Part shown: in pieces, positions 25,655 to 61,222 of the stretch
Position numbering within the stretch: the stretch's first letter is position 1
Layout: the number at the start of each line of letters is the position of its first letter
Origin: Liolophura sinensis
Lineage: Eukaryota; Mollusca; Polyplacophora; Chitonida; Chitonidae
Direction: 5' to 3'
DNA length: 64,000 nucleotides
Assembly (NCBI RefSeq): GCF_032854445.1
Contig: NC_088295.1
Span: 25,839,385 to 25,903,384 of the forward strand
Made by a program: the position numbers and the translations under genes
The notes under the pieces: generated by a model
Seen by the model: only the letters and a program-made list of their open reading frames with translations
Databases searched by the model: none
What the model was told of the DNA's origin: nothing

Positions 25655-25813
25655 TGTTGGCCGTATTTGGGAGGGTCTTGCAGCCACCTGCAGATAGTCG
25701 TGGGTTTCCCCCAGGCTCTGCCCGGTTTCCTCCCACCATAATGCTGGCCGCCGTCGTATAAGTGAAATATTCTTGAGTACGGCTTAAAACACCAAATAAA
25801 ATAAATAAATAAC
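25655..25813 (+). mobile_element. V-SINE (RUDI-like), 5'-truncated
   Basis: GGCTCTGCCCGGTTTCCTCC core, ATGCTGGCCGCCGTCGTATA, AAATATTCTTGAGTACGGCT and an AATAAATAAATAA tail. Confidence 0.8.
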
Positions 25814-35700: not shown

Positions 35701-38700
35701 GATTGTGCATAGTAAAGTTATAATTATTGGTATGTAGTCATACACATAAGTATGTTATGTAAATAAACAAATGGAGACTACAAGAAGCGCGTCAGAATCT
35801 GTAACAGATTACTGACGTGTGCTTAATCTTTTTTAATTCAACACCTGAGTCGGACATAGTGGTCTGACATTAAGAATTTGGAATAATGTATGCCATATGG
35901 TGTCATTCCAAAGTTTGCCGGACTTCTCTGCTGTACATCTTAATTTTACTACATGTTGGTGGGGAATTTAAAAGCTGGTGTTGATTAGCTAATATGCATT
36001 ATAATGAGAGATACGCACACGTATAGGTACCACTATTCACCATGTTCTCACCATGATTTCTATCTCCCCCTCCCGGAGACTGCCTCCACCCTCAGATCTG
36101 TCCGTCAACACGGCGAACTGTGTATTCTTGTTACCACACTGAAAGAAGAGACGGAGGCTCTGCTTGGGAATGGTACGAATCCATGTGCCAATAAAGGGAG
36201 ACGTGCTTAAATCGGCGTTTTTTCTCTGCAAAGCTATTTCAGACTTCATTTATTTGCTTGATTGTTGTTTAAAGACATGTTAAAGAATTTTTCATTGACA
36301 CCATTCCGGTCTGGAGGTTGTTACGACAAAAGATATGCTGATGAATGTTTCATTTATACCATAGAGGTCGGGAAGTAACTGGAGTCAAACGGGTAAAATC
36401 ACAGGGATAAAAAGTACGCTCCATTAGCACGTCACTGCCAGACTTTTTCATGTGTAACGTACAGACTTGCAAGCTGTATTTGTGGTATACACGTGCTCTT
36501 CCACGAACGTAAGACTGTCTATCTAGTCCATAGAGCAGCGAGAACGAAGGAATTTAGAATGATAATCATCCAGTACAGTGCACATATAACTTCTACGTTT
36601 CGCTCTAGACCACTGGGGGTTTCTATTCAACAGCTCACAATCTCAGATGGATACTTCACTTATTTACGGCATGTCAGCTGTTCTTTCAAAGCGATGAATT
36701 AGGCCTGAAGAGTGGAGAGACAGGCAAGGGGAGATAACCTTTCCGAAAGATACGTCAATTCAGAGTTAAGTCCCCTGAGACAGGTTTCAGCTTACCACGT
36801 CATCTGGTCTTTTAGAAGGATAAGATTCAGTTCACAAAATCATCATTTTAGGCAACTCTGTTATACGCAAAATAAGAAAATTTAAGATCGTCGACATGAT
36901 ACTCAGATTTTCGCTGCTTTTGTAAAATATTATCACAATTATAAAGAAAGCAGCATTTTAATGAAATGTTGAACTATACTTGCCTGCATGAAGATTTTAC
37001 TGTTAACTGGATAATAGTTGCCTGCCACAGGTTCAGTTTGATTTAGTTTCCATGTGGGCCTGTAGTCTATGCTGTAAATAAAGGCTATAAAATAAACCAT
37101 ATGACTACTATCACCTGACCATTAGACACCTAAACAAACGGTCAAAAATCTACACATATACTAAATACGATCACAGAACAGTAAACCCCTCGAAGCGAAG
37201 CGAAACTTCTCTCCTACAATCAAGTAATAACTCAAATTTTACAAGGCCCATAGTTTTTCTGAAACTTCCGCACAGACCTGGATTTCTATAAGCTAACTGA
37301 TCTCTTAAAAAGTTGATAAATGTACATCCTATGATATACATGTATATAATATATTAGAGAACACCGATTAAATAGAACGGTAACGACATTCAGATAGTTG
37401 ACAAATGTCACACGTAACCTATGAAATACCTGAGGTATTGCTCTAACTGTTCATGTAAATGGGGATATAGAAGCAACTTTCACAGTCTCTAGCACCACAG
37501 CCCTAGCAGAATTACGTTTTATTGAAATCTGCACTTACGTTAATTGCAATACATTACATTTCCCTTACCTAGAACTACTCAAAATACTGTGCAATCATCA
37601 CAATAACTAGTAATAAACGTTTACAAGAAACTAATGCAAAACCCTACCTTGATACCATTTGTAAAAGAGCACGAAAAAAGTTCTGGCGGCAGGAAATGTT
37701 TTCAGGAAACCACTTCCTCAACAGTAAAACCTTCAGGATCCACTTACATTCTCTTCAGGATTTGTCGGCCATTGGCGTCTGTGTAAAATGTTCTGTCAGT
37801 CATCATGTCTGTCTGAATCCGATTCACAACCTCCTTCCCGACTTTGTCGCTGAAATACGGGAAATTATACCTGTCAACTGCACCGGAGTAAAACAAATGA
37901 AATGTCTGTGGCAGTGGTGTTTTTGTTTAAAATTCTCTCGTTGAGCAATGGTAGAGCGTTCAGTTCTTGTACAACGTCAGTCATGCTAAAGGAAAAGTTG
38001 TAAAACTTTGGAAGTTTTGCTGCTTGTATACATATAAAGTGCTGTTCAATATTATTGACGGAATATTTGTTGAATATGACAAATGCATGAAACTTTGGCA
38101 CCTCTTTCATTAGAAGTATTTTTCAGGTCCCACTCCGACTACAAATATAATTAATAGAACTGCTTGTGAAAACATGGCATATAAAGGAGACTTACTCGAT
38201 GGGGATGGGTCCAACTGTCCACTCCAGCTCAGCATATTCGGCGTCCTCGTAGAGCCTGATCACCTGACTGACCCACGGGCTGAACCTCTGCTCCACCTCC
38301 TGTACAAGAGGACCCTGGGGCACAGACAAACGTGATCGGAGATTGAGGTGACTGCGGCAATACGGTAAGGTTCGGTTCAAGATGTATCGGTTCACTCAAA
38401 AGCATTATTTAACTTCAGAATTAGTAGTTGTTGTATGAACATTTAATGATCGGCTACTTAATCCACTCGTTCTAACCGAAATCCCACTTGTAAGCAAATT
38501 CAGTGATAGCTATCTTAGTTTAACTCTTATGAAGCTTGGCTAGTTCAAAGGGCTGATTCAACACTATCTGAGTAATATCACCCAAATAATGATTTCTTTA
38601 TACAATATTTTCTTACTTTTCATTTGTTCTAAAATTTTAATATAAAGGATAAAAACTGGTATATTGAAAAACAAAAACGCTGAATTTATTAATGGATACA

Positions 38701-41700
38701 AACGTTTAACGACAGTAACAGAAGGCTAGTAACTAGAAAACGTTAACCTGTGCGATCCTGGTATGTTTCACTGATGTACCACTGTTAAACGTGTGCGGCT
38801 CCATCTCGTTGGGTCTGAAGATGTAAGCCCCGGAGGCCTGGAACTCCGGTTTGCTGTTGTTGCCTATAAATCCCGTGTAGTAGGCGAATTCTTGTTTTAA
38901 TTCTACCGATACTTGACTGTCAAGGTTTTCCATAGATGATAGGTGTCCAGCGTCATCAAATGTGAGAGAGATATGCTGAAATGTGAGTCCAAATGTAAAC
39001 CAGGGTAAGCGGCAAATATCATAGTGGTAGAATATATTTATTTTTACCACCATTCAAAAGTTCTAACAGCATACAGGTATAAAATGGCCCGTGTTGGAAC
39101 ACTTATAGCACTTCATTATCACCGCAAACCGGGTAGCTTTTAGTTATTGATCTACTAGTATCTTAATGTTGCAGATAATAAGTACGGTTACGTTTATTTA
39201 TTTATTTGATTTATGCCGTTCTCAAGAATATTTCACTTATACGACGGCGGCCAGCATTATAGTGGGTGGAAGAGTCCGGGGGAAACGATCCACCCTTCGC
39301 AGGTTGCTGGCAGGCCTTTCACGTATGGCCGGAGAAGAAGCCAGCATGAGCTGGACTTGAACTCATGCATTGGTGTGGGGCTCCTGGGTCATTGCGCCGC
39401 GCTGTCAATCTAACCAGCTAAGCCACGGAGCGCCCAGAGCGGTTATGTGTACCATGACAGAATCAGTCATCGACTATATCCGTATCGAAAAATTGCTAAT
39501 ATGAATTAGGGCACCCTAGAAAAAATTGGTTTAGTGTTAGCCAATTAGTATAAAGGTGTAAAAACAAAAACACCCTTGTCTAAAGAAAATGTTTAATATA
39601 TTTTTGTATTTTTACGATCATAATTACGTTCATGCTTTCCTTATTATAACAAATAGTTATGGAAACCGTAATACCTTGTTCTTTAGAACTGTATCGGCAC
39701 CTGTGATGTCCAGCTCGCGGAAATCACTTAGATTCTGGTCGGGAACATCTGACAAATATAGTGTCTACTTAGTGTATCAGTTCTTACTGGTTTTGAATTG
39801 TCTGTGTGTTTGTTTTAGAAAGCAACGGTCAATTACTGAAAGAATATTTAAGTACTGAAGAATAATGTAACTGAGGTGACTTATTCCAAACACGCTTCTC
39901 TTCAGTTTAAAACGAGGTGAGGAACGATTTATGAGAATAAGCAAATGATTATTTTTGTACATGTAACACATAAAAAGTCTGCGGCTTTCATATAGACCAT
40001 GTACATAAATCTACTGTTCCTCCTCAGCACTTACCGCTAGTCATCTGAACAAAGTACGAGGCAAATCCTAATGCCGGTATCGTAACGCTGAATACCAGCT
40101 CAAGGGTGGCCTTACTCTTCCGTTCTGGGATGGACATGGTCCTGGCGCTGACTGGCAGTAGCTGACAGAGAACAGCAAATCACGACAACAGCGCGTTAAC
40201 ATTCCCATTTTCACCGAAAAACTCAGTGTTATACTATAAACAGTTATTATAAAAACATTAAATCAGGGAGATGTATTAATTTCATTTATTCTGTTTGTTA
40301 ACTTTGAATATTAAATACCATATTTTTAAGTATCCATACATTACCTGTGTGGCTACAGACATTCCGTCTGAATCTGTCACATTATACGTTCCTGCCACCA
40401 CGGGCAGGCGCACCCAGCGGGTTACATGACGTCCCAGAGGATTGTAAGCCAACATCACAAACTGAAGAGGACAAAGCGCAAGAACAAAATAACAACCAGC
40501 ACAGTGATAAGAGCAAGGGTAGCGCGATTTTCTTTGTGTGTGTTTTCTTTTTTCCTTGACATGCGTGTAATTGACGTCTCTTTCAGTAATATATTTCTCA
40601 GATGTCTGCGGTGACTCTTTACAGGAGGCCTGTTCCAATGTCGACATATTTAAAGCGCTGCCTCACTGAAAGCCATTGGAAGACACCTCATGCCGAAGAC
40701 ACCAGACACTCAGTCACAGAACATGTGATATCCACATTTTTTCGCCCGACAAGATCACCAAGATTGCCGTTTTAAGATCTTACACTCAACCAATAAAGTT
40801 GACCATTCAGATAACATAAAAAATTCTCCTCAGTTTTTATGCTATTACATACTAAAGAACAAATGTATACAATGATATCTTGTGAGATTTTGTTAAGCGC
40901 CTCAGTTGTTACCTGTTTATTATTCTCTGTGACGTCACACATACTGATATTCAAAAGCCCACAGTAGTGCTGATCGAAGGGTACATCCGTCCCGGACTTA
41001 CTTAGTAACTTCTTGTAAGCGTCATTAATGGTTTTCTGGGAAAACAACGAATCAGATCATATGAACGAAAATAACATTTCGTTTCAAAAAAGAAACAGTT
41101 TGAAACATTCAAATGTGGCTGTCACTTCTTTATATACACACAATTCCAGTATTGTAAAACATTCTATCAACATCAACATTTCCATAATTAAAGTAGAAGC
41201 CTTATTTACACTGCCATAGTCAGATGACACTGGCTGTTCAGTTCAAAAGATGTGTGCTAAGGTTTGGAAAATCTATATAAGGAGATTTCTACTTACAAGT
41301 GTGAAGGAGTTCAAGAATTTCGGAGGAAGGAAGACAGGTAGAATAATGGCTTACCCTACATTCGTTCACTCCGTTTGCCAATCTTTCAGCGTAATCATAG
41401 GCAACCACCTGCTTCTCAGTTCCTCTAAAATGATAGTAATATGAAACTGTCACATATTTCTTCAAGAAAATATGGAAAACATTCAAAGCTGTGTAGTCAT
41501 ATTTCATTTGATTAACATTAAAATGTACATAAATAGTAAATACAATAAAATTACATACATACAATGAACTTACGAGACTCCATCATGATGCTGGGCCACG
41601 CCCATCGCCTCCTCTATAAAACGAAAAAACAGCCTGAGCAAAATGACGAATGCCCATAAAACGTTGTCTTTCAAGTTTGTTTTTCCGGAGGTTTATTTTT

Positions 41701-44700
41701 ATCATTCGCATCACAATACAAATATAAAAACGCATGTCTGCGAGAAAAACTTAAATGAAGACGTATTCTGTGACCTCAAAAGTAACATATTTCAAGGGAT
41801 TTTTTTTTTGGTAAGTTTCATTCTTGAATCAACTAGTCTTCATTGTAGATCCTATTCCAAAGCACTGCAAATCTATACTATAAACTTTCAAAAGGTAAGA
41901 CTTACTGAGAACTTCCACGCTGACAGAACTATGCTGAGAATCGTCAAGTTGTGCCAGGGCATCCATTTGTTTACACACCTAGGTAACAGGTAAATAAGAA
42001 AACAAATTCAAGCTAAGCGACTCGTGAAGATATATTTAATCCACTGAAGTGTCTGTGTTCTTCCAATCATACAGTTGTTGTTTGGTCGTTGATAAATATC
42101 TATGGGAAGTGTATGATTTGACTTATATGTTCATCTGTGTGATATCTCCAAATCTAATTGTCGTATAAACACACATTCACATACCACTCATCAAGCATAA
42201 TGGACGTTCCCCATAGAAAATGCATTTTCGAAAACAACGTCAAGCACAAACTATCGTAGTGATAAAGCAGTATATCAGAAAGTATAGCAGGGAGTTAAGT
42301 CAAGAAATGCAGTCATATCTATTTGTCGATCGGATTTGTCATTTATCGTAGGAAAGTTCAACTGTTTGATGTACCTGAAGAAAACTGATCTTTCTACTGT
42401 ACCTGAAGAAAGATGTTAGTCTGTCTGACCTACCTGTAGGAAGTTGGTAGTCTGTCTGACTTACCTGTAGGAAGTTGTTAGTCTGCCTGACCTACCTGTA
42501 GGAAGTTGTTAGTCTGCCTGACCTACCTGTAGGAAGTTGTTGGTCTGTCTGACCTACCTGTAGGAAGTCGTTAGTCCGTTTGACCTACCTTTAGGAAGTT
42601 GTCAGTCTGCCTGACCTACCTGTAGGAAATTGTTAGTTCGTCTGACGTATCCCTTGAGTGCAGCTCTGCTAGTAAAGTAGCCTGTCCAGAAGCTATGAGC
42701 TCGGTGAGCGTACGGGAAGAAGTCATCACTTTTGGTTGTCCATGTTTTGTTTGCCAGGTTTAGTTGTTTCAGATAACAGGATGGAGTGGAGTAAAGTAGA
42801 TTCACTTTGGTATTGTTCAGAGTTTGCTGAATCGAAAATGAGAGAAGAATGAGTCTAATTATTTCACTTGTTACAGCAGTTTAGAGGGGTTTTGAGTGCG
42901 TTGCACAATTTACTGTATTTGAAATAAAAATTCACGCAAAAAATATATTATTTAAGATGCCAGTAAGGGTTATAATCCATTACTTTAGATGCTGAAGCCA
43001 AGACTTTTCCATCGAGATACCATCCTGCCATCTGGAATGAATAGAACTCCTTAGACAAAATGAGTAACTTGGCCATCGTCGAAGTTCTCGGTCAAATACA
43101 AAATGCTTCGTGATAAAGCGAAAATATATTACAGACAATCTTACCGCATGTGCACATGTGACTAAATATCATCCCCTACCTTACAGACAGGCGGATTGGG
43201 TCAGCTTTGCGACCTCAAAATAAAGTTAAGAGTATTTGGGGCATTTGAATTTACTGGGTAAGAACACGGTTGTCTAGGTCAAAAAGAACTCAAAGATTTT
43301 GGACACGTCTTGGCTAGATTTTGCGGTTTAGGGTTGATTATGGTTATTTTTGTTCTTTCCTGGCACTTTAGAAGCTGACATCGAAACGGAAAGATATACT
43401 TTCCGTTTGTCTCACCTGTTGGTTGACATATTTGATAATCTTGTCCAGGTTCTTGTACCAGGTCAAAGCGTCCGTGTACTGGAAATCACTGCCCATCGTC
43501 ATAATCAGATGATCGGTAGCGTAATGCTTGGCCTGCAAATATTCATGATCCTATGTACATATCAAAAAGAGAAGTGTTGAAAACTTGAAAAAGTCTGTTA
43601 TATGGACGGGACTTTTGGGGCAGAGAAAACAAGTCAAAATAATTATAAATGAAAAAAAAAAATGATTCTCAGAAGTATCATCAGGTTGTTAAGGCACCTT
43701 TATTGTAGATATCTTAAATGTGGAAAACTTCTTGTAAAATTACGTTCAGACGTAGTTCATATCAGAGCTGTGTCATACCTGATCAGCCACGTCTTTGAGG
43801 AATTGGTTAACTTTCTGCGGAACATTGTAGTCATGTAGAGACTCGTCATCCTGAAAGATTCAGAAATTAAATTATTAAACACATGACATAATGTGCTACA
43901 GAGTTCTGAATAAAGATAATTCTTTTTTCTTGAAAAAGTAAATCTTAAAAACGGGAATAAAGAATGATTTTGATATGAGTGGTGATGAAGACTTCATACC
44001 ATAACGGGGTCGCTACAGTCGTACGCAAAGCAGATGCCAGGTGGGGGTCCATATCCATCATACAAAGCTCCCGTGAACAGAGAAGAAGAAATTCCTGTGG
44101 AAAATGCAGCAGTTCATAAATTCAATGAAGGAGTAATTAACCTTTCATCATTTTTCGGATTTCTCATAAGTATAACATTTACCAAACATTTTGTTTTTCG
44201 AGACAGCGGAACTTGGCCCAGTGGTGAGACGCTCGGCTCCAAACACGGGGCAAAACAAAGAGTGGGTTCAACCCCGATCTTGGGCAGGGAAATTCTGTTT
44301 CCATGTTATCAGTGTATTATGACCATAAGCGGCCAATATTGTGAGGGCTGAAGACCACTTGAACAAAATCTGTACCCCCAGCGAAGTAAGTATGGGGTTA
44401 AACAAAACAAATATATAAAAAAAGACCAAGATCTATATTTCAACACACACACAAAAAATAACTAATAATTTTAAAAAGTCAAATATTTCAAAAGGTTTAC
44501 AGCAACATCCGGTTTATCATTAAAGAGGAGTAATACCTTAATTCTGTGTAAAATTTAGTGTCGAAGATAATACGCTTTCTTGGTGTCTAGATAAGTATTT
44601 AAGTTCAGTACATGTGATGTTTTGCTGGAAACTGTCGAAAGGTAACTTGCCTAAGTCATCGCTCCCTTCCCAAACCAATTTCCATTGTCGATGCGTTGAC

Positions 44701-47700
44701 TCGGTAATCTTTATCCTGGTAGTCAAGGCGGCCGAAAAATAAACCGTCATATCCCATCTGTAACAGACATGAGTCTACATTAAAACACACCGTCATATCT
44801 CATTTGTAACAGACATGAGTCTACATTAAAACACACCGCCTTATCCCATCTGTAACAGACATCAGTCTACATTAAAACACACCGCCATATCTCATCTATA
44901 ATAGACATGAGTCCACATTAAAACACACCGTCATATCTCATCTGTAATAGACATGAGTCTACATTAAAACACACCGCCATACCTCATCTGTAATAGACAT
45001 GAGTCTACATTAAAACACAGTCATGTCATCTGTAACAGATATCAGCCTACATTAAAACACACCGTCATATCTCATCTGAAACGGACATCAGTTAACATTA
45101 AAACACACCGCCATATCCCCTCTGTAACAGACATTAGTCTACATTTAAACACACCGTCACATCCCATCTGTAACAGACATTAGTCTACATTTAAACACAC
45201 CGTCACATCCCATCTGTAACAGACATTAGTCTACATTTAAACACACCGTCACATCCCATCTGTAACAGACATTAGTCTACATTTAAACACACCGTCACAT
45301 CCCATCTGTAACAGACATTAGTCTACATTTAAACACACCGTCACATCCCATCTGTAACAGACATGAGCCCACATTAAAACACAGTGGCATATCTCATCTG
45401 CAACTGACATCAGTTAACATTAAATCACACCGCCATATGCCATCTGTCATAGACATTAGTATACTTAAAACACACCGTCATATCTAATCTATAATAGGCA
45501 TCGGTCTACATTAAAACCCACCATCTTACCTCATCTGTAACAGACATGAGTCCACATTAAAATACACCGTCATATCTCATCTGTAACAGGCAGCAGTCTA
45601 CATTAAAACACACTATCGTATCTAATCTGTAACAGATATGAGTTAAAATTAAAACACACCGTCATATCTCATATGTAACAGATATCAGCCTACATTAAAA
45701 CACACCGTCATACCTCATCTGTAACAGACATAAGTTAACATTAAAACACACCGTCATATCTCATATGTAATAGACATGAGTCCACATTAAAACACACCGT
45801 CATACCTCATCTCTAATAGACATGAATCTGCATTAACACACCATCATATCTCATCTGCAATAGACATGACTCTACGTTAAAACGCATTATCTACTCAGAA
45901 CCCCATGGGCTTTCCGCACAGCGTTACAAAAAAATTGTTGAAGAGCTCACCTGAGCAAAGAGAGAGGCTTGTTCTCGAGAGTGGCCAAAAGGGTCGATCT
46001 GCCAGGCCACCCTGGGTCGGGCACACTCCCCAAACGTCTCCCGGAGAAAGCGGAAGCCCAAGGTGTGCTGGTCAATGATGGCGTTATAGTGAGTGGACGC
46101 CTCATCATTCATCGACCAAGCTCCCAGAATAAACTCCAGTCGACCTGAAAACAAGCCAGTAAACGTTAAGCTTTCACGGGCACAATGGATTCATCTATTA
46201 TACAGGTTCCACATTTCACCTGAACACCATGGTGCGAAATATGTGTTTCAGTATGCAACGACCATTGATCCACCATTTCTAGCTTGTTAATTTCCAGAAT
46301 TTTCTATTTCTCAGCCAGAAAATGCAATAAACAGTTTGAAAAAACAGAAATCAATCAAAATGATGATGCTAAGTTTTTCACCAACTGGAATTACCTATCC
46401 TGATGACCCAGAATGCTCGGTATGTATATATGCTACGGGTTATACGTCGTTCTTTACAAAAAAATTTAGTCATACGACCATGAGGAGTCATTAGGTGTAC
46501 TTATACAGTGTCTTCAAGTGACAGGCTGAGTAGATGGCGGCGAAGCGCTGCCGCCACTGAAGTATCATGCCGAAGACACCAGATATGACACCCCGCCTGG
46601 TCACATAATACTGACACCGGGCCAGCCAGTGCTGTTTCCTTGGTCTAACTGCTCAGTGTTGAACACGAAATAAACATATATAAAACACAAAATATCATAT
46701 TTAAAGTCGCTGGTACGGTTTTGTATGCTTGGTAATCCAATTGTTAACATTACCATAACCATAGGAAATTACATTTGACAACATAATACAATTGAATACT
46801 TCTTTGACAGCAAAGCTTCTTGTTGCTTAAGTACGTACACTGCATTCACTACCAGAACTATTTCACAAAGCGGGTACAGCAATCTCACCTTGATTGACCA
46901 GACCTTTCACGATGTGTCTTATGGTATCGTCCTGTTCATCCCACCATCGTTTAAAGAAGGCAATCTCCACATAGATAAACCTCCTGGACGGGTCCATTTG
47001 TATTTGAGGAATGACCGTATCCAGAATATATTGTACACCTGCATTTGTAGAGATAAATGAACGATTTAAGGTATTTAATTCTAAAAATTATTGGGTGTCA
47101 GACTATAGCTGTCTGCATTATTCTGTCACCATAAGGACAAAGTTCTCTAATCATCTAGAGCCAAGAAAACATTTTATGTCAAATATTGAATTAAATTCGC
47201 TTCAGGTTATATCCATATTATTGATGGAGTATATCCGGTTAATTTCTTCCATTTTTCAGTGCCGATGGTCGTTTAACGAAAGCAAACTATACAAGGTAAA
47301 AAAAAAAAAGAAATGTATTTGTTTACGATCTCCGCTATTGACAGGGTAAAAGTAAAACCATTTTCACCCGTCTCGAGCCGCACAATGACATAGGAGTCCC
47401 CAGACCAGCTCAGTCTGGCTTCCCCTCTGGCCCTACTTGAGAAGGTCTGTCAAAAACCTGCGGATGGTCGTGAGCTTCCTGCCCAGTTTCCTCCTACTAT
47501 AATGCTCGCCGCCGTCGTATAAGTGAACTATTCTTGGGTACAGCGTAAAACACCAATCAAACAAATAAATAAACAGATAAAATCAGTGTTGAACGGTATT
47601 ATATTTACGCTGGTAGTAGTATTGGTCCACGGTCATGATCCAGCCGACGTCATCATGAGTGTGAGGGACAACATGGACGTTGATCATCCCTTCTTTCACT

Positions 47701-48414
47701 GGATTACAGCTCTGAGAACAATATAATGAAGAAACAGATACACCGAGGAAACATTTTGAGCAACAAAGAGAAAGCGTATAAGAAATCTTTATCATAGTTT
47801 TACGCAATGTTCAAGGCATTCTTCAAGGTGCATGTAGGAGCTGACTTTCCTGTTCTGAAAACAACCACCTTCGACAACTGATGGAGACAATACAGCGATT
47901 AATGGTGTGCTGCCACTCAGTGCTGTCTTGATTATGCTTTAATTGGAAATCCTACACATATTCGCTTGAAACAGAAGATGTATTTAGAGCACACGTGTGC
48001 CATGAAGAGATAATTTTAATACACCGTAACTCGTGTACTCGGCTCCTTCGTTTCTAAACAGCCATGGCATAATACCATTCCCAAAGCTTTCGTGGTTATT
48101 CTTATCGCTCTCATCCATGTTCTACAAATCATTAGAATTCAGGCGTCAGACTGAGCACTTAGTGAAACAACTTCTGTAGTTCCACACAAGCACGTACACT
48201 TTGATAAGCTGGTGTTGGTTACGGAAGGTGTGAGCTACATGATCACGCCTTTACCTGTCTACAGAGTAAGTTGGCCTAAACTACTAACCTCATAACCACA
48301 CGTGTCATCATCAGGAACTGACTCTCTTTGATCTGACGAGAACACAAGGGTTTTCCCCATCACCCCGAATTGAGAAGCGATGAGACCAACCAAGACGAAC
48401 ATCAAGGTCTCCAT
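32606..48414 (-). CDS. MAN2B1: Lysosomal alpha-mannosidase copy A, 26 exons, frameshift in exon 5
   Basis: GH38 exo-mannosidase that removes alpha-linked mannose from glycoproteins in the lysosome. Exons in transcript order: 48289-48414, 47609-47711, 46889-47038, 45951-46144, 44651-44757, 44000-44094, 43779-43850, 43416-43532, 42620-42826, 41906-41978, 41574-41613, 41355-41424, 40913-41035, 40345-40461, 40035-40161, 39675-39748, 38748-38975, 38196-38314, 37748-37849, 36984-37071, 36052-36138, 35520-35610, 34447-34592, 33798-33947, 33482-33590, 32606-32730. Phases agree at every junction. Lengths sum to 3,040 nt, one more than 1,013 codons, the excess being the extra base in exon 5; human MAN2B1 has 1,011 residues. 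Zinc and catalytic residues of the family are present: HTHDD (exon 2), the nucleophile Asp in IDPFGHS (exon 4), and QHHD (exon 11). An N-terminal hydrophobic stretch is a likely signal peptide. As written the protein ends in exon 5. Exon 2's 3' end is uncertain. Confidence 0.9.
32775..33112 (+). repeat. Dispersed repeat R1, copy e, in intron 25 of copy A
   Basis: More diverged: CATGGACGCTCCAGGTCAAA, ACAGTCAACAGTTTCCAATG, TATGCATCTCAATTGCACTT and a CCCCTGGGTTGG end. A full-length V-SINE follows directly. Confidence 0.65.
33112..33320 (+). mobile_element. V-SINE with tRNA head, in intron 25 of copy A
   Basis: Head GGCCTTCGTGGCCGAGGGGG-TTAGCACGCC resembles a tRNA D-arm region, with CGCTGTGAGTTCAAGCC as box B. 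The 3' end is AAATATTCTTGATTACGGCG and an AATAAATAAAT tail. The V-core itself is deleted. Confidence 0.75.
33482..33590 (-). CDS. MAN2B1: Copy A exon 25
   Basis: Reads [20 protein letters not shown] and continues [10 protein letters not shown], the C-terminal beta-domain stretch equivalent to human LFSTFTITRLQETTLVANQ. Same length (109 nt) and phase as the diverged exon at 51416-51524, with which it shares roughly half of its residues, so the two belong to different paralogues. Confidence 0.88.
35220..35460 (-). repeat. Dispersed repeat R2, intron 22 of copy A
   Basis: AATTGCAACTGACGTCACTG-type left end, TGACAAGAGGCTCGATTTCA, GTGTGGCCAGTTGCCAAC and TCTGTTTTACTC on the plus strand. Confidence 0.55.
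36984..37071 (-). CDS. MAN2B1: Copy A exon 20, cut by the duplication in copy B
   Basis: Reads [20 protein letters not shown] and continues PVNSKIFMQ, almost identical to human [22 protein letters not shown]. The donor is CAG|GCAAGT, a second GC-type donor in this gene. The duplication unit starts at 37063 inside this exon, so copy B keeps only its first 9 nt. Confidence 0.92.
37380..37600 (+). repeat. Dispersed repeat R2, intron 19 of copy A
   Basis: CTCTAACTGTTCATGTAAAT, CTAGCACCACAGCCCTAGCA then GAATTACG, ACGTTAATTGCAATACATTA. Also at 52,420-52,640 in copy B. Confidence 0.5.
39190..39436 (-). mobile_element. V-SINE with tRNA head, intron 16 of copy A
   Basis: Complete element on the minus strand: (AAAT)n tail at 39190, CAAGAATATTTCACTTATAC, core, and the tRNA-like head (GCTTAGCTGGTTAGATTGAC on its own strand) near 39,410-39,436. 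Present at the same place in copy B. Confidence 0.85.
40650..40765 (+). repeat. Dispersed repeat R3, intron 13 of copy A
   Basis: Partial: GCGCTGCCTCACTGAAAGCC, CATGCCGAAGACACCAGACA, CTCAGTCACAGAACATGTG. Duplicate in copy B at about 55,670-55,785. Confidence 0.5.
41574..41613 (-). CDS. MAN2B1: Copy A exon 11: 40-nt exon with active-site QHHD
   Basis: A very short exon reading [13 protein letters not shown], which carries the third zinc-binding His of GH38 enzymes (HHD, His446 in bovine numbering). It joins exon 10 (phase 1) and exon 12 (phase 2) to give [20 protein letters not shown], matching human [20 protein letters not shown]. Easily missed by gene finders because it is too short for an ORF scan. 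Confidence 0.92.
42375..42645. repeat. 31-bp minisatellite grown from the exon 9 donor (copy A)
   Basis: About eight extra units after the real junction. On the gene's strand each unit is ACTAACAACTTCCTACAG (end of exon 9) followed by GTAGGTCAGGCAG (start of intron 9). Most units keep CTACAG|GTAGGT, a good donor; one unit has CTAAAG. The two most distal units are degraded. Confidence 0.93.
42620..42826 (-). CDS. MAN2B1: Copy A exon 9
   Basis: 69 codons including [33 protein letters not shown] and a TNNFLQ end, matching human VLYSTPACYLWELN and DDFFPYADGPHQFWTGYF. Phase 0 on both sides. The last 18 coding bases and the following 13 intron bases are repeated in tandem downstream (see the 31-bp array), so several near-identical donors follow the real one. 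Only the first donor keeps the reading frame into exon 10 without a stop. Confidence 0.92.
44206..44412 (+). mobile_element. Second tRNA-derived SINE, intron 5 of copy A
   Basis: Head CTTGGCCCAGTGGTGAGACG fits pol III box A, and GTGGGTTCAACCCCG fits box B, spaced as in a tRNA. A unique body of about 110 bp follows. No V-core, so a different family from the others. Confidence 0.7.
44651..44757 (-). pseudogene. MAN2B1: Copy A exon 5 with a +1 frameshift
   Basis: Starts [16 protein letters not shown], the conserved stretch after the nucleophile exon. One extra base at 44677/44678 (AAATTGG where copy B has AAATGG) shifts the frame and brings TGA at 44656-44658. The copy B exon is 106 nt and open. 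The exon ends TTAG|GCAAGT, a strong GC-type donor, and joins exon 6 in phase 1. Its acceptor and first 15 bases are the seed of the minisatellite that follows at higher coordinates. Either a real null mutation or a sequencing/assembly indel beside a long tandem array. Confidence 0.85.
44743..45893. repeat. 46-bp minisatellite grown from the exon 5 acceptor (copy A)
   Basis: About 25 tandem units, imperfect, with five near-identical ones at about 45,120-45,360. Read on the gene's strand each unit is the end of intron 4 (TCTGTTACAG), the first 15 nt of exon 5 (ATGRGATATGACGGT), then GTGTTTTAATGTAGACTCATG. The first unit overlaps the real exon 5, so the array begins at a working splice site. Not a CRISPR array: no spacers, degenerate units, animal intron. 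Confidence 0.95.
45951..46144 (-). CDS. MAN2B1: Copy A exon 4: catalytic nucleophile exon
   Basis: 65 codons including one split codon, reading [20 protein letters not shown] and later [21 protein letters not shown]. The Asp of IDPFGHS is the GH38 nucleophile and a zinc ligand. Very close to human [17 protein letters not shown]. It starts after TTTTCAG and ends before GTGAGC. In the usual NGGW position this protein has LGAW. Confidence 0.93.
46525..46670 (+). repeat. Dispersed repeat R3, intron 3 of copy A
   Basis: GCGAAGCGCTGCCGCCACTG, ATCATGCCGAAGACACCAGA, ACACCCCGCCTGGTCACATA, CTGCTCAGTGTTGAACACGA. Duplicate in copy B at about 61,858-62,000. Confidence 0.65.
47376..47574 (+). mobile_element. 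V-SINE abutting exon 2 of copy A
   Basis: CCAGACCAGCTCAGTCTGGC, AACCTGCGGATGGTCGTGAG, GCCCAGTTTCCTCCTACTAT, GCCGCCGTCGTATAAGTGAA and an AAACAAATAAATAAACAG tail that runs to within about 35 bp of the exon 2 donor. It sits antisense to the gene in intron 2. Confidence 0.85.
47609..47711 (-). CDS. MAN2B1: Copy A exon 2: zinc-binding HTHDDVGW exon
   Basis: Reads SCNPVKEG, then [15 protein letters not shown] and a DQYYYQ tail. The His and second Asp of the HTHDD motif are zinc ligands in bovine lysosomal mannosidase. The acceptor is a clear CAG. The donor C|GTAAAT at 47608 is in the right phase for exon 3, but leaves out about 8 residues that orthologues have here. Translation past that donor gives KYNTVQH, which resembles the missing KNDIQH-type segment, and then a stop exactly where the tail of a SINE begins. 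See findings. Confidence 0.8.
48289..48414 (-). CDS. MAN2B1: Copy A exon 1: start codon and signal peptide
   Basis: 42 codons beginning [17 protein letters not shown], a short hydrophobic run typical of a secretory signal peptide, as expected for a lysosomal enzyme. It ends in CGYE, matching the GYE that precedes the mature GH38 domain in animal orthologues, followed by donor GTTAGT. I chose the ATG at 48414 rather than the in-frame ATG at 48495 because the upstream extension is rich in Lys/Arg and would bury the signal peptide. A V-SINE lies about 220 bp upstream. Confidence 0.85.
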
Positions 48415-48634
48415 GTTACTGGAGGTAGGCAAGAAGAAACTATCGTTCCTCTTTCTCTTCTCTGCCTGTCTCGTGAGGTGGTAATACGACACCACATGAT
48501 TTCCGAATATAGATGAATATTCATTAACTGGTAAATACAGTACTTTAGCCCCGTATCAGTTATCAGTGGAGAACAACAATACCTAGCTATGTCAAAGGCC
48601 AAGGACGGAGATAGGACCGGCGTGCCAGGTCGAC

Positions 48635-48832
48635 TTATTTATTTATTTATTTATTTGATTGGTATTTTGCGCCGCACTCAAGAATATTGTATTTATACAA
48701 AGGTGGCGAGCATTATAGTGGGAGGAAATCAGGATTAGCCCGAAAGAAACCCACGTCCATCTACACGCGGCCAGAAAACCTTTCCACATACAGCCAGAGA
48801 GGACCTCCGCATGAACTGAACTCACAGCAGCC
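48635..48832 (-). mobile_element. V-SINE upstream of copy A
   Basis: (TTTA)n at the left, TGCGCCGCACTCAAGAATAT, GCGAGCATTATAGTGGGAGG and a diverged head. It lies about 220 bp upstream of the copy A start codon and so may sit in or near the promoter. Confidence 0.75.
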
Positions 48833-51047
48833 GCACTGGTGAGATACCAGGTATAGAGAAATGTGGATGTTACACAACACTTCTTTGACTAAAACCTCGG
48901 AATACATCACAACACAAACAATCAAACAGCAGGCAAATGGGGCTTCACGGTATAGCGATCTGGGATTAATAATGCGTTCGTGATTACTTCTGGGATCACA
49001 AGACCCATACTGACGACGACATCAGAAAGGACACTGAAATCAACAGACATTACATGTGCTGCAGACACCAGGCGTGACACCAGACAGGACACTTTACAAT
49101 GCCTTAAGTACATTTTCCAAAGCTTTTGGATCCGCCACATACATGATGGGAGTTGTGGACATATACACGTGAGTTGGTCGTATGCCTGTGTTCATAACCC
49201 AAACCATGACCGACCGACCGAAAAGCAGCAAGATTCATGTAATTAGCCCCGTGTCCCATAGTACAAAGAGTTCCAAGTGCATTTTGTTCCCATTTTGTTT
49301 TTCACTTTTAGCAAGGGAAATGTCAATGTGTCAATGCAAAGTATCAGCAGATAAATTTCCATGCATCAATCTGCTAGCCTGTCCATCCAAAGATACCGCC
49401 ATAACCACACCAAATGTGGCTGGCCGGTTAAGAAGTATGAAAGTAGTTTTTTAATTGACGCAAATCGCGACGTCCAACACAGACAGCGTTTCTCCAACAA
49501 CAAACAAGACAACTGTCAAGTAATAAAGAAATAAGTGGTTTTCACAAGAATTCTTTGGGTAATATTCGCGAATTAATAAAAAAAAAATGCATGAACAACT
49601 GTTTAGTACAAATCCATGCAAGAAAACCACATCCACTCAGCATGCATCTGGGGAAATGGTGGTGATATATTCCACACAGGTTTACATTTTCTTTCTTCAT
49701 ACAATATATACAACACTGCCAGTTTTTACATACATTCGACTAACAATGTAACATCATCTTTTTTTTTGTCAAAAATATTACACTTAACATAAATTTACAT
49801 ACAATTTAAATCACAAGTTACTAAACAAAATTAAAATGACTTTATCGGATGCCACACTAATAGATATATACAGTAACAGTATACCAACAATGTAAAACCT
49901 TCAAGGACGCAAAAAGAGAAACAAAAATGTGGCTACACATTTACTATTAAAACATTCATTGAAACCATGATAGAAGGAAAAAAGGGTAGATATATGTCAA
50001 CTATTAAAAGACTTGGGTGAACAAAAAAGATAGGTATATATATTTACTTTTAAAACATTAATGGAAACAATGGGAGAACCGCTGGGAGGTTAGTTATATG
50101 TAAAATGATGTACATGTTTCTGTTAACTTTTAACCATTTATGGAAACATAAAACTTACATGGTAGCTATATATTACATATATTATTAAAATCTGTCCAAG
50201 TTCACAGGTGGCATGTAAGTAAACTCCGTGGTAAAATGTGAAGTGTAAATAATACATCATGATCTTGTAAAACACTGTATTGAAACCCACAACAAAAACA
50301 CCCATGTCCAGGACAAAAACATGGTTAACATTTAGCAGTTTCTGGAGATGCAACAACTTCTTTTTGTACCACTGTATCTTCAAATATGTGTAATTTCGCA
50401 TGTTTTTCCTTTCTTTGCCAAGGAAAGTTTTCCTTTCTTTTCTTAAGTGGTTTAATATCTGAATTATTCAATTTGAATAAAGGGTGTATCTTAAAATTTT
50501 ACAATACATGTTGCAAATTTAATCTTTACATTTTTTAAAAATTATATCACATATAACACTGAACATAATGCCAATAGATCATTCATTAAATGTACACCCC
50601 AATGATGGTAGATACCCTAAAGATTACCTGAAATACAGTACATAAAGCAAGACAAATACATGTACATGTACTTAAAACGCATTAATAGCCTCGAATTTGA
50701 AAGAAATGTTAAATTCTAAAACACATTTTAGCACTTCAAATATAAGTAAACTAATTCATATTATAACTTCCTCACCTTCGTGAAACAGCATTTAACAGTC
50801 TGTTTAACAAGAAAGCCTTTAACCAGAAAACAGCAACTCAAGAATAGCATCACTAATACAAGTAACAGCAACTTGCCAGATCTCTATTACAGTGAAAAAG
50901 AGTAAAGAAGTAAACTGCCTTCTGAGAGAGATTTGGGTTTTGAGATACATGGACGAGAAAATCACAGGGGCCACATGTGGAATATTTTACACACGGACAT
51001 GTAATATCATGAGTAGAGCATCCTCTAGGTATTATGTCACCCTAGGT
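48833..51047. other. Intergenic DNA and probable 3' UTR of the third paralogue
   Basis: Right part (about 49,500-51,047) is very AT-rich and lies just downstream of the minus-strand stop at 51048, so it is probably 3' UTR. At 49,930-50,170 there are about three diverged ~100-bp repeats (ACTATTAAAACATTCATTGA, ACTTTTAAAACATTAATGGA, ACTTTTAACCATTTATGGAA). The left part shows nothing recognisable. Confidence 0.5.
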
Positions 51048-51524
51048 TCATCTAGGCGTGAAGGCCACTTGATAGGTTCTGATCTGCATAGGTGTAAGAG
51101 TTACATCCCTTGTATCACGGTAACTCTCCTGTTTCTTGATCTCCTCAGTTCCTGAAATATATTCACACAGTTGTTATGAAGTTATGAAAGCTTGCTTACC
51201 CATTCTGTGTAATTTTATCTCCATATAAAGACTTAAAACACTTGCACAGCATTCAAAGTTGTATTTTATTCATAGAAAACAGCTGAAGATTTACAATGAT
51301 GAGAACAGAACAATAGTGAGCTTGACATATATCAGTGTAGTTTAGTTTTTTTCACACTGGCAAATTACAAAGGAAGACACAGGTAAGTAGACAAATAGAT
51401 GAATAAACTACTGACCTGTTTCTCCTACTATTTTCCATTTCAGTCTGCTGACATCAGCAGTTTTCTGGTTAGCACCTAATGTCAATTCTTCTGCACTTTC
51501 AACATTGAATGATGAAAACAAATC
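51048..51524 (-). CDS. Last two exons of a diverged third alpha-mannosidase paralogue
   Basis: Exon at 51416-51524 reads DLFSSFNVESAEELTLGANQ then KTADVSRLKW. Exon at 51048-51151 reads TEEIKKQESYRDTRDVTLTP then MQIRTYQVAFTPR and TGA. They join in phase 1 (GT donor, CAG acceptor) and correspond to exons 25 and 26 of copy A, but are only moderately similar. No equivalents of exons 20-24 are visible between 51,525 and 52,102, where copy B starts. I infer that the rest of this gene once lay to the right and was separated by the tandem duplication. The downstream 1.2 kb, AT-rich, is probably its 3' UTR. Confidence 0.85.
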
Positions 51525-54229
51525 CTGAAAGACAACAGTCAAATTACAGTTTGAAAACACACAAATCAATTCATAACAAAATTTATATAACACTGCACAT
51601 TTGCTAATAAATTACCTTACATATCTACGTACACAAATGTGACTGGTAAAGTATAACAGTCTTGTTCACGTATTGGCACATATGTACTTCATAGAAATAA
51701 TACAATAACCTGTGTTAAGAATAACTAACATTCCCATAATATGCCAAAACCTGGACATGTATCTGTGGTCAAACTTGTTGAGTATTTAGGGTAGGCTGTT
51801 AAAATAATTGGTCTATATCACTCAAGTATGTACATGTAGCCAAACTGCCTTCAAACACTGTCTGCACCAGAGGTTCTCCTATGCAAACAAATTTCTGACA
51901 GATTTCAAAAGTCCAAATTTATCTCCTTTCTTCTTTAAATATTATATTTTATTTAATTTAATTTAATAAAATTTAAAATAATAAGTATTATGCAAAGAGT
52001 AAATGATTACAAACTTTACAAACTAATACCACTACATTTTGTTGGATTCTCAGGGTTTCTTGGCCAATTCAATGGTATTTGTTACCCCCACCCTAAATAC
52101 CATAGTCTATGCTGTAAATAAAGGCTATAAAATAAACCATATGACTACTATCACCTGACCATTAGACACCTAAACAAACGGTCAAAAATCTACACATATA
52201 CTAAATACGATCACAGAACAGTAAACCCCTCGAAGCGAAGCGAAACTTCTCTCCTACAATCAAGTAATAACTCAAATTTTACAAGGCCCATAGTTTTTCT
52301 GAAACTTCCGCACAGACCTGAATTTCTATAAGCTAACTGATCTCTTAAAAAGTTGATAAATGTACATCCTATGATATACATGTATATAATATATTAGAGA
52401 ACACCGATTAAATAGAACGGTAACGACATTCAGATAGTTGACAAATGTCACACGTAACCTATGAAATACCTGAGGTATTGCTCTAACTGTTCATGTAAAT
52501 GGGGATATAGAAGCAACTTTCACAGTCTCTAGCACCACAGCCCTAGCAGAATTACGTTTTATTGAAATCTGCACTTACGTTAATTGCAATACATTACATT
52601 TCCCTTACCTAGAACTACTCAAAATACTGTGCAATCATCACAATAACTAGTAATAAACGTTTACAAGAAACTAATGCAAAACCCTACCTTGATACCATTT
52701 GTAAAAGAGCACGAAAAAAGTTCTGGCGGCAGGAAATGTTTTCAGGAAACCACTTCCTCAACAGTAAAACCTTCAGGATCCACTTACATTCTCTTCAGGA
52801 TTTGTCGGCCATTGGCGTCTGTGTAAAATGTTCTGTCAGTCATCATGTCTGTCTGAATCCGATTCACAACCTCCTTCCCGACTTTGTCGCTGAAATACGG
52901 GAAATTATACCTGTCAACTGCACCGGAGTAAAACAAATGAAATGTCTGTGGCAGTGGTGTTTTTGTTTAAAATTCTCTCGTTGAGCAATGGTAGAGCGTT
53001 CAGTTCTTGTACAACGTCAGTCATGCTAAAGGAAAAGTTGTAAAACTTTGGAAGTTTTGCTGCTTGTATACATATAAAGTGCTGTTCAATATTATTGACT
53101 GAATATTTGTTGAATATGACAAATGCATGAAACTTTGGCACCTCTTTCATTAGAAGTATTTTTCAGGTCCCACTCCGACTACAAATATAATTAATAGAAC
53201 TGCTTGTGAAAACATGGCATATAAAGGAGACTTACTCGATGGGGATGGGTCCAACTGTCCACTCCAGCTCAGCATATTCGGCGTCCTCGTAGAGCCTGAT
53301 CACCTGACTGACCCACGGGCTGAACCTCTGCTCCACCTCCTGTACAAGAGGACCCTGGGGCACAGACAAACGTGATCGGAGATTGAGGTGACTGCGGCAA
53401 TACGGTAAGGTTCGGTTCAAGATGTATCGGTTCACTCAAAAGCATTATTTAACTTCAGAATTAGTAGTTGTTGTATGAACATTTAATGATCGGCTACTTA
53501 ATCCACTCGTTCTAACCGAAATCCCACTTGTAAGCAAATTCAGTGATAGCTATCTTAGTTTAACTCTTATGAAGCTTGGCTTGTTCAAAGGGCTGATTCA
53601 ACACTATCTGAGTAATATCACCCAAATAATGATTTCTTTATACAGTATTTTCTTACTTTTCATTTGTTCTAAAATTTTAATATAAAGGATAAAAACTGGT
53701 ATATTGAAAAAGAAAAACGCTGAATTTATTAATGGATACAAACGTTTAACGACAGTAACAGAAGGCTAGTAACTAGAAAACGTTAACCTGTGCGATCCTG
53801 GTATGTTTCACTGATGTACCACTGTTAAACGTGTGCGGCTCCATTTCGTTGGGTCTGAAGATGTAAGCCCCGGAGGCCTGGAACTCCGGTTTGCTGTTGT
53901 TGCCTATAAATCCCGTGTAGTAGGCGAATTCTTGTTTTAATTCTACCGATACTTGACTGTCAAGGTTTTCCATAGCTGATAGGTGTCCAGCGTCATCAAA
54001 TGTGAGAGAGATATGCTGAAATGTGAGTCCAAATGTAAACCAGGGTAAGCGGCAAATATCATAATGGTAGAATATATTTATTTTCGCCACCATTCAAAAG
54101 TTCTAACAGCATACAGGTATAAAATGGCCCGTGTTGGAACACTTATAGCACTTCATTATCACCGCAAACCGGGTAGCTTTTAGTTATTGATCTACTAGTA
54201 TCTTAATGTTGCAGATAATAAGTACCGTT

Positions 54230-54476
54230 ACGTTTATTTATTTATTTGATTTATGCCGTTCTCAAGAATATTTCACTTATACGACGGCGGCCAGCATTAT
54301 AGTGGGTGGAAGAGTCCGGGGGAAACGATCCACCCTCCGCAGGTTGCTGGCAGGCCTTTCACGTATGGCCGGAGAAGAAGCCAGCATGAGCTGGACTTGA
54401 ACTCACGCATTGGTGTGGTGCTCCTGGGTCATTGCGCCGCGCTGTCAATCTAACCAGCTAAGCCACGGAGCGCCCA
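54230..54476 (-). mobile_element. V-SINE with tRNA head, intron 16 of copy B
   Basis: Duplicate of the intron 16 element in copy A with a few substitutions; inserted before the 15-kb duplication. Confidence 0.85.
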
Positions 54477-57389: not shown

Positions 57390-57660
57390 CTGAAGAAAAC
57401 TGATCTTTCTATTGTACCTGAAGAAAGATGTTAGTCTGTCTGACCTACCTGTAGGAAGTTGGTAGTCTGTCTGACTTACCTGTAGGAAGTTGTTAGTCTG
57501 CCTGACCTACCTGTAGGAAGTTGTTAGTCTGCCTGACCTACCTGTAGGAAGTTGTTGGTCTGTCTGACCTACCTGTAGGAAGTCGTTAGTCCGTTCGACC
57601 TACCTTTAGGAAGTTGTCAGTCTGCCTGACCTACCTGTAGGAAATTGTTAGTTCGTCTGA
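57390..57660. repeat. 31-bp donor minisatellite (copy B)
   Basis: Same array with the same number of units as copy A, differing by a few substitutions, so the array was complete before the 15-kb duplication and has been length-stable since, unlike the 46-bp array. Confidence 0.92.
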
Positions 57661-59218
57661 CGTATCCCTTGAGAGCAGCTCTGCTAGTAAAGTAGCCTGT
57701 CCAGAAGCTATGAGCTCGGTGAGCGTACGGGAAGAAGTCATCACTTTTGGTTGTCCATGTTTTGTTTGCCAGGTTTAGTTGTTTCAGATAACAGGATGGA
57801 GTGGAGTAAAGTAGATTCACTTTGGTATTGTTCAGAGTTTGCTGAATCGAAAATGAGAGAAGAATGAGTCTAATTATTTCACTTGTTACAGCAGTTTAGA
57901 GGGGTTTTGAGTGCGTTGCACAATTTACTGTATTTGAAATAAAAATTCACGCAAAAAATATATTATTTAAGATGCCAGTAAGGGTTATAATCTATTACTT
58001 TAGATGCTGAAGCCAAGACTTTTCCATCGAGATACCATCGTGCCATCTGGAATGAATAGAACTCCTTAGACAAAATGAGTAACTTGGCCATCGTCGAAGT
58101 TCTCGGTCAAATACAAGATGCTTCGTGATAAAGCGAAAATATATTACAGACAATCTTACCGCATGTGCACATGTGACTAAATATCATCCCCTACCTTACA
58201 GACAGGCGGATTGGGTCAGCTTTGCGACCTCAAAATAAAGTTAAGAGTATTTGGGGCATTTGAATTTACTGGGTAAGAACACGGTTGTCTAGGTCAAAAA
58301 CAACTCAAAGATTTTGGACACGTCTTGGCTAGATTTTGCGGTTTAGGGTTGATTATGGTTATTTTTGTTCTTTCCTGGCACTTTAGAAGCTGACATCGAA
58401 ACGGAAAGATATACTTTCCGTTTGTCTCACCTGTTGGTTGACATATTTGATAATCTTGTCCAGGTTCTTGTACCAGGTCAAAGCGTCCGTGTACTGGAAA
58501 TCACTGCCCATCGTCATAATCAGATGATCGGTAGCGTAATGCTTGGCCTGCAAATATTCATGATCCTATGTACATATCAAAAAGAGAAGTGTTGAAAACT
58601 TGAAAAAGTCTGTTATATGGACGGGACTTTTGGGGCAGAGAAAACAAGTCAAAATAATTATAAATGAAAAAAAAAATGATTCTCAGAAGTATCATCAGGT
58701 TGTTAAGGCACTTTTATTGTAGATATCTTAAATGTGGAAAACTTCTTGTAAAATTACTTTCAGACGTAGTTCATATCAGAGCTGTGTCATACCTGATCAG
58801 CCACGTCTTTGAGGAATTGGTTAACTTTCTGCGGAACATTGTAGTCATGTAGAGACTCGTCATCCTGAAAGATTCAGAAATTAAATTATTAAACACATGA
58901 CATAATGTGCTACAGAGTTCTGAATAAAGATAATTCTTTTTTCTTGAAAAAGTAAATCTTAAAAACGGGAATAAAGAATGATTTTGATATGAGTGGTGAT
59001 GAAGACTTCATACCATAACGGGGTCGCTACAGTCGTACGCAAAGCAGATGCCAGGTGGGGGTCCATAGCCATCATACAAAGCTCCCGTGAATAGAGAAGA
59101 AGAAATTCCTGTGGAAAATGCAGCAGTTCATAAATTCAATGAAGGAGTAATTAACCTTTCATCATTTTTCGGATTTCTCATAAGTATAACATTTACCAAA
59201 CATTTTGTTTTTCGAGAC

Positions 59219-59420: not shown

Positions 59421-59757
59421 TATATGAAAAAAAGACCAAGATCTATATTTCAACACACACACAAAAAATAACTAATAATTTTAAAAAGTCAAATATTTCA
59501 AAAGGTTTACAGCAACATCAGGTTTACATCCGGTTTATCATTAAAGAGGAGTAATACCTTAATCCTGTGTAAAATTTAGTGTCGAAGATAATACGCTTTC
59601 TTGCTGTCTAGATAAGTATTTAAGTTCAGTACATGTGATGTTTTGCTGGAAACTGTCGAAACTTGCCTAAGTCATCGCTCCCTTCCCAAACCATTTCCAT
59701 TGTCGACGCGTTGACTCGGTAATCTTTATCCTGGTAGTCAAGGCGGCCGAAAAATAA

Positions 59758-61222
59758 ACCGTCATATCCCATCTGTAACAGACATGAGTCTACATTAAAA
59801 CACACCGTCCTATCTCACTTGTAACAGACATGAGTCTACATTAAAACACACCGCCTTATCCCATCTGTAACAGACATCAGTCTACATTAAAACACACCGC
59901 CATATCCCATCTGTAACAGACATCAGTCTACATTAAAACACACCGTCATATCCCATGTGTAACAGACATCAGTCGACATTAAAACACACCGTCATATCTC
60001 ATCTGTAATAGACATGAGTCTACATCAAAACACACACATTTCTCATCTATAATAGACATGAGTCCACATTAAAACACACCGTCATATCTCATCTGTAATA
60101 GACATGAGTCTACATTAAAACACACCGCCTTATCCCATCTGTAACAGACATCAGTCTACATTAAAACACACCGCCATATCCCATCTGTAACAGACATCAG
60201 TCTACATTAAAACACACCGTCATATCCCATGTGTAACAGACATCAGTCGACATTAAAACACACCGTCATATCTCATCTGTAATAGACATGAGTCTACATC
60301 AAAACACACACATTTCTCATCTATAATAGACATGAGTCCACATTAAAACACACCGTCATATCTCATCTGTAATAGACATGAGTCTACATTAAACCACACC
60401 GCCATACCTCATCTGTAATAGACATGAGTCTACATTAAAACACAGTCATGTCATCTGTAACAGGCATCAGTCTGCATTAAAACACACCGTCATATCTCAT
60501 CTGAAACGGACATCAGTTAACATTAAAACACACCGCCATATCCCCTCTGTAACAGACATTAGTCTACATTTAAACACACCGTCACATCCCATCTGTAACA
60601 GACATTAGTCTACATTTAAACACACCGTCACATCCCATCTGTAACAGACATTAGTCTACATTTAAACACACCACCATTTCTCCTCTATAATAGACATGAG
60701 TCCACATTAAAACACAGTGGCATATCTCATCTGCAACTGACATCAGTTAACATTAAATCACACCGCCATATGCCATCTGTCATAGACATTAGTATACTTA
60801 AAACACACCGTCATATCTAATCTATAATAGGCATCGGTCTACATTAAAACCCACCATCTTACCTCATCTGTAACAGACATGAGTCCACATTAAAATACAC
60901 CGTCATATCTCATCTGTAACAGGCAGCAGTCTACATTAAAACACACTATCGTATCTAATCTGTAACAGATATGAGATAAAATTAAAACACACCGTCATAT
61001 CTCATATGTAACAGATATCAGCCTACATTAAAACACACCGTCATACCTCATCTGTAACAGACATAAGTTAACACTAAAACACACCGTCATATCTCATATG
61101 TAATAGACATGAGTCCACATTAAAACACACCGTCATACCTCATCTCTAATAGACATGAATCTGCATTAACACACCATCATATCTCATCTGCAATAGACAT
61201 GACTCTACGTTAAAACGCATTA
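59758..61222. repeat. 46-bp acceptor minisatellite (copy B)
   Basis: Same array as in copy A, expanded to about 32 units. It includes a higher-order duplication of six units (period about 274 bp, from about 59,853) that copy A lacks, and only three of the near-identical TTAGTCTACATTTAAACAC-type units instead of five. Confidence 0.95.

Follow-up and report, generated by a model that had tools for sequence, protein, structure and literature searches.

Mirages, tandem repeats that lie over an exon-intron boundary, were first named at the amphioxus Adh3 gene (PMC3087553). In the account given there, the repeat units measure 10-72 bp at Adh3 and 150-160 bp in the globin genes, acceptor and donor types of unstable length are described, and reverse transcription PCR (RT-PCR) suggested regular splicing. 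The lancelet PGBD5 and troponin C mirages were added subsequently (PMC3902484), and in amphioxus regular splicing seems unaffected by mirages that carry AG/GT signals (PMC3087553, PMC3902484). Here we describe an array of this kind in a mollusc, within a 64,000-nucleotide stretch (the window) of contig NC_088295.1 of the chiton Liolophura sinensis, positions 25,839,385 to 25,903,384 of assembly GCA_032854445.1 (PMC11068029; the species name has since been corrected to Liolophura sinensis, PMC12441733). Eight matches to PF14830, a molluscan haemocyanin beta-sandwich family, and the PDB matches of one of the reading frames concerned are consistent with a molluscan genome. A lysosomal alpha-mannosidase-like gene on the minus strand has an intron 4 that consists nearly wholly of a 46-bp minisatellite. 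The window holds two tandem copies of this gene (A and B), both on the minus strand and each with an intron 4 array.

The chiton array has the structure of a mirage as read from the DNA. Its unit joins the intron and exon sequence of a single boundary, as do the boundary-spanning minisatellites of amphioxus BflGb6 (an acceptor mirage of 3' intron end and 5' exon) and BflGb9 (a donor mirage); the splice dinucleotide is kept in many units and not in all, as with the AG/GT of the amphioxus units; and length is unstable, with 24 versus 31 decoy units in copies that are 0.74% apart outside the array, compared with 6 versus 3 units in BflGb6 haplotypes. Unlike the amphioxus cases, the host is a mollusc and not a cephalochordate, the decoys number 24-31 as against the 3 and 6 repeat units described for BflGb6, and the same gene bears an acceptor and a donor mirage together. 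A tandem duplication of splice signals also underlies the intron-gain model of Rogers (cited in PMC3087553) and the potato RNA-dependent RNA polymerase (RdRp) case (PMC4974935); unlike in the Rogers model, no new intron has formed in the chiton gene, whose intron 4 is old and common to a third, related copy, paralogue C. In our searches of openly licensed papers we found no mirage reported outside cephalochordates; the word 'mirages' also came up in papers on a plant gene and on birds. The novelty thus lies in the phylum, the kind being already known from amphioxus. We consider it probable that this mirage was seeded across the intron 4/exon 5 boundary, grew neutrally, and is ignored by splicing through exon definition.

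Structure and origin of the intron 4 array

Tandem Repeats Finder (TRF) placed the array at 44736-45883 in copy A (period 46, 25.1 copies, 84% matches) and at 59751-61216 in copy B (32.1 copies, 84% matches). Together with unit dissection and exon coordinates, this confirmed the splice-acceptor minisatellite reported by a first-pass annotation of the window, including its unit of 46 bp, in which 31 bases from the end of the intron are followed by the opening 15 coding bases of exon 5, and the low end of its range, 44651, where exon 5 ends. Intron 4 has a length of 1193 bp in copy A and of 1511 bp in copy B, and in each only the first 66 bp lie outside the array. The authentic acceptor is the last unit of the array; the annotation's 25 (A) to 32 (B) acceptors ahead of the exon are accordingly correct as totals that include it, and leave 24 and 31 decoys. 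With 25-32 tandem copies, chance is excluded as an explanation.

The decoys are less uniform than the annotation had described. An intact AG is present in 21/24 (A) and 26/31 (B), and the CAG attributed to every unit is found in 18/24 and 21/31. The exact form GTTACAG/ATG (here and below, a slash marks the splice position) was said to prevail and occurs in only 9/24 and 9/31, while G/GTGTGT follows the exon-like piece in 17/24 and 21/31 decoys rather than in all. The exon-like part, read in every unit as MGYDG, starts with ATGAG (MR..) in 29 of the 55 decoys and with ATGGG (MG..) in 14. Over a comparison of 23 bases, no decoy in A or B is identical to the authentic acceptor, although nine windows of A and 12 of B come within one base of it, AG losses included.

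The direction of descent can be read from paralogue C, whose exons 4 and 5 lie at C1:25919305-25919942, on the strand of copy B and approximately 20 kb away from it, and whose intron 4 measures 335 bp and has no array. In a genome-wide DNA search, the 46-bp unit was matched in these two arrays alone (very frequent words are ignored by this search, and counts from it are minimum values). A paralogue with the exon and without the array, and a unit found nowhere else, argue that the exon came first and that exon 5 seeded the array. The annotation had named the reverse order, in which the start of exon 5 was captured from an older satellite, as a possible refutation. We regard this as barely credible, given that exon 5 is conserved as far as Protein Data Bank (PDB) entry 1o7d, is present without an array in paralogue C, and has no further unit copy in the genome-wide search. 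Both paralogue C and 1o7d read MGFDG, whereas A and B read MGYDG, and the Tyr/Phe codon of the decoys is TAT in 35/55 and TTT or TTC in 0/55, indicating that the seed was the A/B exon. A tandem duplication across the intron 4/exon 5 boundary would therefore have occurred in the A/B lineage after its split from paralogue C.

Units within each array differ by 16% on average, whereas units 1-11 of A differ from their partners in B by 0.4%, which places the array well before the A/B split. Copies B and C are separated by a synonymous divergence (Ks) of approximately 1.6, which is near saturation, and a non-synonymous divergence (Ka) of 0.13 over 421 codons; the array is younger than the split of A/B from C and much older than that of A from B. 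Its interior has changed after the latter: copy A has four identical units in a row (A13-A16) where copy B has two (B13-B14), and a five-unit block is repeated exactly in B. The different decoy numbers and the repeated block, both from copies in one assembly, point to unstable length. Growth probably proceeded by slippage or unequal exchange, block duplications included, and array copies would be confined to the intron side of the boundary, since duplicates inside the coding sequence would disrupt the reading frame.

Gene constraint and predicted splicing at the array

The protein encoded by exons 4 and 5 matches the lysosomal alpha-mannosidase of PDB 1o7d (E 9e-45), with an identical 16-residue segment, and jack bean alpha-mannosidase (E 1e-27). 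We take 1o7d to be the bovine enzyme, and the identical segment presumably holds the nucleophile. Between A and B, Ks is 0.020 and Ka 0.0018 (Ka/Ks 0.09) over 718 codons in 18 exons, with 3/12 coding differences non-synonymous (P 1e-4 under neutrality); the low Ka relative to Ks indicates that the gene was constrained while carrying the array, and would indirectly favour undisturbed splicing. An intact reading frame from end to end is found in neither copy of this assembly: copy A has one extra T in exon 5 (44678 region), which shifts the frame, and in copy B the duplication junction leaves 9 bases of exon 20, beyond which a stop is met. Because neither copy is intact, the gene is best assigned to lysosomal alpha-mannosidase (family GH38) by descent, and not as a working enzyme.

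To compare conservation along the unit, we counted variants per unit position and ran permutations over the 31 distinct decoy sequences (12 tests). The decoy AG showed no extra conservation (2.5 versus 3.0 mean variants, P 0.56), nor did the 15 exon bases of the decoys (3.2 versus 3.0); the two GT positions of the pseudo-donor averaged 0.5 variants, a low yet non-significant value (P 0.12). The competition for splicing, or buffering of it, that the first-pass annotation had suggested is thus not supported by these data. That selection keeps the tandem acceptors as a back-up for exon 5 is highly improbable: the retention of AG in most decoys of both copies would fit it, yet conservation of AG does not exceed that of other unit positions, and use of a decoy after failure of the authentic acceptor gives a stop, so that the protein would be lost in spite of a back-up. 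Every AG-bearing decoy (21/21 in A, 26/26 in B) meets an in-frame stop 2-31 codons on, and therefore wrong choices would mean lost messages and not new proteins.

Splice sites were scored with a local matrix of 19 acceptors and 14 donors; two of the 16 donors were omitted, as their inferred cut missed the GT. The exon 5 acceptor was outside the training sites, and the other authentic sites were inside, so that their scores are flattered. The authentic exon 5 acceptor scored 7.7, which is low for the gene, and the decoys came close. The pseudo-donor ACG/GTGTGT scored 3.4, below all 14 local donors (weakest 6.3). A unit could act geometrically as a pseudo-exon, as had been proposed, but none of the array exons tested, 231 in A and 401 in B, was both in frame and free of stops.

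From these features we infer that splicing picks the authentic exon 5 acceptor by exon definition. Exon 4 would be joined to the authentic exon 5 and the decoys would leave with the intron, since only the authentic acceptor is followed by a complete exon with a donor to pair with. Several observations weigh against this reading. Three AGs per intron score at least 7.7, making the decoys approximately as strong as the authentic acceptor, and 20 AGs in A and 24 in B reach at least the score of the weakest of the 19 local acceptors, so that some use of decoys is plausible. Unit 8 carries a strong cryptic donor, GAG/GTAAGA, in both copies (score 9.5). A TTTAAT stretch, a possible branch site, was less variable than other positions (P 0.018), one result among the 12 tests and not relied on here. 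Finally, as neither copy is intact, it is uncertain whether the gene still functions.

The first two of these observations lend some weight to a role in expression, in which decoy acceptors, or a poison exon ending at the unit 8 donor, would give rise to transcripts that are destroyed, and array length would set or lower the level of the gene. Besides the decoy scores and the unit 8 donor, this reading could draw on the early stops in all 47 decoy read-ons and the absence of any harmless array exon. It could also draw on two described cases: a C. elegans minisatellite over-represented near regions of alternative splicing (PMC4039745) and the human ABCA7 intronic variable number tandem repeat (VNTR). 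The latter is likewise an intronic tandem repeat of variable length, and its length correlates with exon 19 skipping and expression (PMC5954066). By contrast, the decoy AGs lack extra conservation, and the amphioxus RT-PCR results suggested regular splicing through mirages (PMC3087553); we therefore consider a role in expression unlikely, and neutral growth with exon definition remains our preferred explanation. RNA-seq that bears on the choice of splice site has been deposited (PRJNA973839, five samples; PMC11068029).

Probable tandem duplication and the exon 9 donor array

The coordinates of the two duplication units and of the features within them are collected in Table 1. A and B diverge by 0.8% when all bins are counted and by 0.74% when the array bins are set aside (100/13,462 aligned bases). 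As this is below the reported heterozygosity of 1.24% (PMC11068029), A and B may derive from a pair of alleles that unequal exchange brought together, or may be alleles that the assembler put in the wrong place. The second of these, in which the assembler set alleles in tandem and the two arrays are a single polymorphic array, would be in keeping with a divergence near, though below, the reported heterozygosity and with HiFi reads that average 8.3 kb at 14x (PMC11068029). We nevertheless find it rather doubtful, since the two units meet directly, with no N between them, at a sharply defined point inside exon 20, as in a genuine tandem duplication, and purge_dups was applied to the assembly (PMC11068029). 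The array stands whether A and B are duplicates or alleles.

Table 1 Features of the duplicated alpha-mannosidase-like gene (window positions; a dot marks features given without strand)
Feature	Position	Strand	Remarks
Duplication unit A	37063..52102	.	15,040 bp; directly adjoins unit B
Duplication unit B	52103..67448	.	Window-plus-flank coordinates; adjoins unit A
Exon 4, copy A	45951..46144	-	Ends CAG/GTGAGC; exon 4+5 protein matches PDB 1o7d
Acceptor mirage, copy A	44789..45884	-	24 decoys of ~46 bp (31 intron + 15 exon); AG in 21
Authentic acceptor unit, copy A	44743..44788	-	Exon 5 starts at 44757
Exon 5, copy A	44651..44757	-	Extra T relative to copy B (frameshift); GC donor TTAG/GCAAGT
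Donor mirage, copy A	42400..42646	-	31-bp unit, 8.0 copies; exon 9 ends at 42620
Exon 4, copy B	61284..61477	-	
Acceptor mirage, copy B	59804..61217	-	31 decoys; AG in 26; B20-B24 = B26-B30 letter for letter
Exon 5, copy B	59667..59772	-	Frame intact; GC donor
Donor mirage, copy B	57415..57661	-	31-bp unit, 8.0 copies; exon 9 ends at 57635

The second mirage of the host gene lies at the donor of exon 9. Its unit consists of 27 bases like the exon end (24/27 identical) followed by GTAG, and downstream of the authentic donor there are seven further CAG/GT sites in A and the same in B. No donor mirage was found at exon 9 of paralogue C. The unit consensus is slightly nearer to the exon of paralogue C (25/27) than to its own exon (24/27), suggesting that the array may preserve older exon sequence.

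GC donors of the form AG/GCAAGT follow exon 5 in A (44650) and B, and apparently exon 20 of A (~36983); the exon 5 donor of paralogue C is GT, versus GC in A/B. Elsewhere in the window we observed two further minisatellites, at 15681-16009 (47 bp x 7.1) and 17871-17942 (23 bp x 3.1), and a dispersed repeat of approximately 160 bp, 79-89% identical between copies and present on both strands (5624-5793, 25659-25812, 39193-39347, 48642-48803 and 54233-54387), which looks like a short interspersed element.

Exon-edge arrays in other chiton genes

We surveyed CCT-family, myosin and kinesin genes for further arrays at exon edges. Loci were picked for dense hits and not at random, and exon boundaries were inferred by script from 33/50 CCT, 34/81 myosin and 57/132 kinesin exon hits; hits with internal stops, thinly clustered loci and one clean hit beyond the cut (C1:48453530) were left out. 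The 18 CCT-family and myosin loci (173,868 bp) contained 46 arrays, amounting to 14.3% of bases, and 6/131 inferred boundaries recurred in tandem on the intron side, five of them donors and one an acceptor. The five donor arrays have units of 109, 66 then 88, 31, 66 and 31 bp, with 7, 11, 6, 7 and 17 copies, respectively, the authentic one included. The acceptor array, in MYO4, has a 32-bp unit and 34 matched copies including the authentic one; its acceptor is ambiguous by 6 bases, so the array holds 3 to 9 exon bases. In the corresponding controls, recurrence was found in 138/948 random non-exon windows and 3/67 exon interiors; boundaries recur less than plain intron, as would be expected were exons protected.

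The 19 kinesin loci (83,519 bp) contained 24 arrays (12.8% of bases), with recurrence in 126/872 random windows and 0/57 exon interiors. Two of the 113 kinesin boundaries qualified by the rule and one after inspection: locus L034 is a probable acceptor mirage whose authentic acceptor lies further on than the script position, and L040 was rejected because its boundary had been wrongly inferred. Outside the host gene, this gives a total of 7 supported mirages at 244 inferred boundaries, five clear and two probable, with exon-edge tandem copies in loci L006, L009, L017, L021, L023 and L034 of the three families. In all seven the authentic site adjoins the exon body, as far as the reading frame tells, which agrees with what exon definition would lead one to expect. 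Two further arrays in CCT4 (L009) were observed and left uncounted: a donor array at an omitted hit (gene-orientation ~5897) and an acceptor-side array at the first exon (~848; TRF 41 bp x 13.4), which has no echo at 21/30.

Compared with the number expected from random seeds, the first survey was enriched (6/131 versus 0.94-1.60 expected, P 0.0004-0.006), whereas the pre-specified kinesin replicate was not (2/113 versus 1.1-1.8), its prediction of more than twice the expectation having failed. Pooled, there were 7 supported cases versus 2.1-3.4 expected (P 0.006-0.057), or 8 by the rule (P 0.001-0.023). Since the replicate did not bear out the first survey, an enrichment of arrays at exon edges is suggestive only.

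These findings indicate that mirages are repeated in this genome. A stronger proposition, that they are a genome-wide chiton feature affecting approximately one exon edge in 35, with edges perhaps preferred as seeds through a mutational process tied to the junction, is one that we put forward tentatively, as a possibility on the lower side of even. Several mirages in one molluscan genome would mean that the phenomenon is old, or that it springs up wherever minisatellites are frequent within genes. A gene in which dozens of acceptors or donors are almost identical would serve as a natural experiment on the way the spliceosome decides between equivalent sites. Mirages can also mislead gene prediction, and new exons and introns may come from them.

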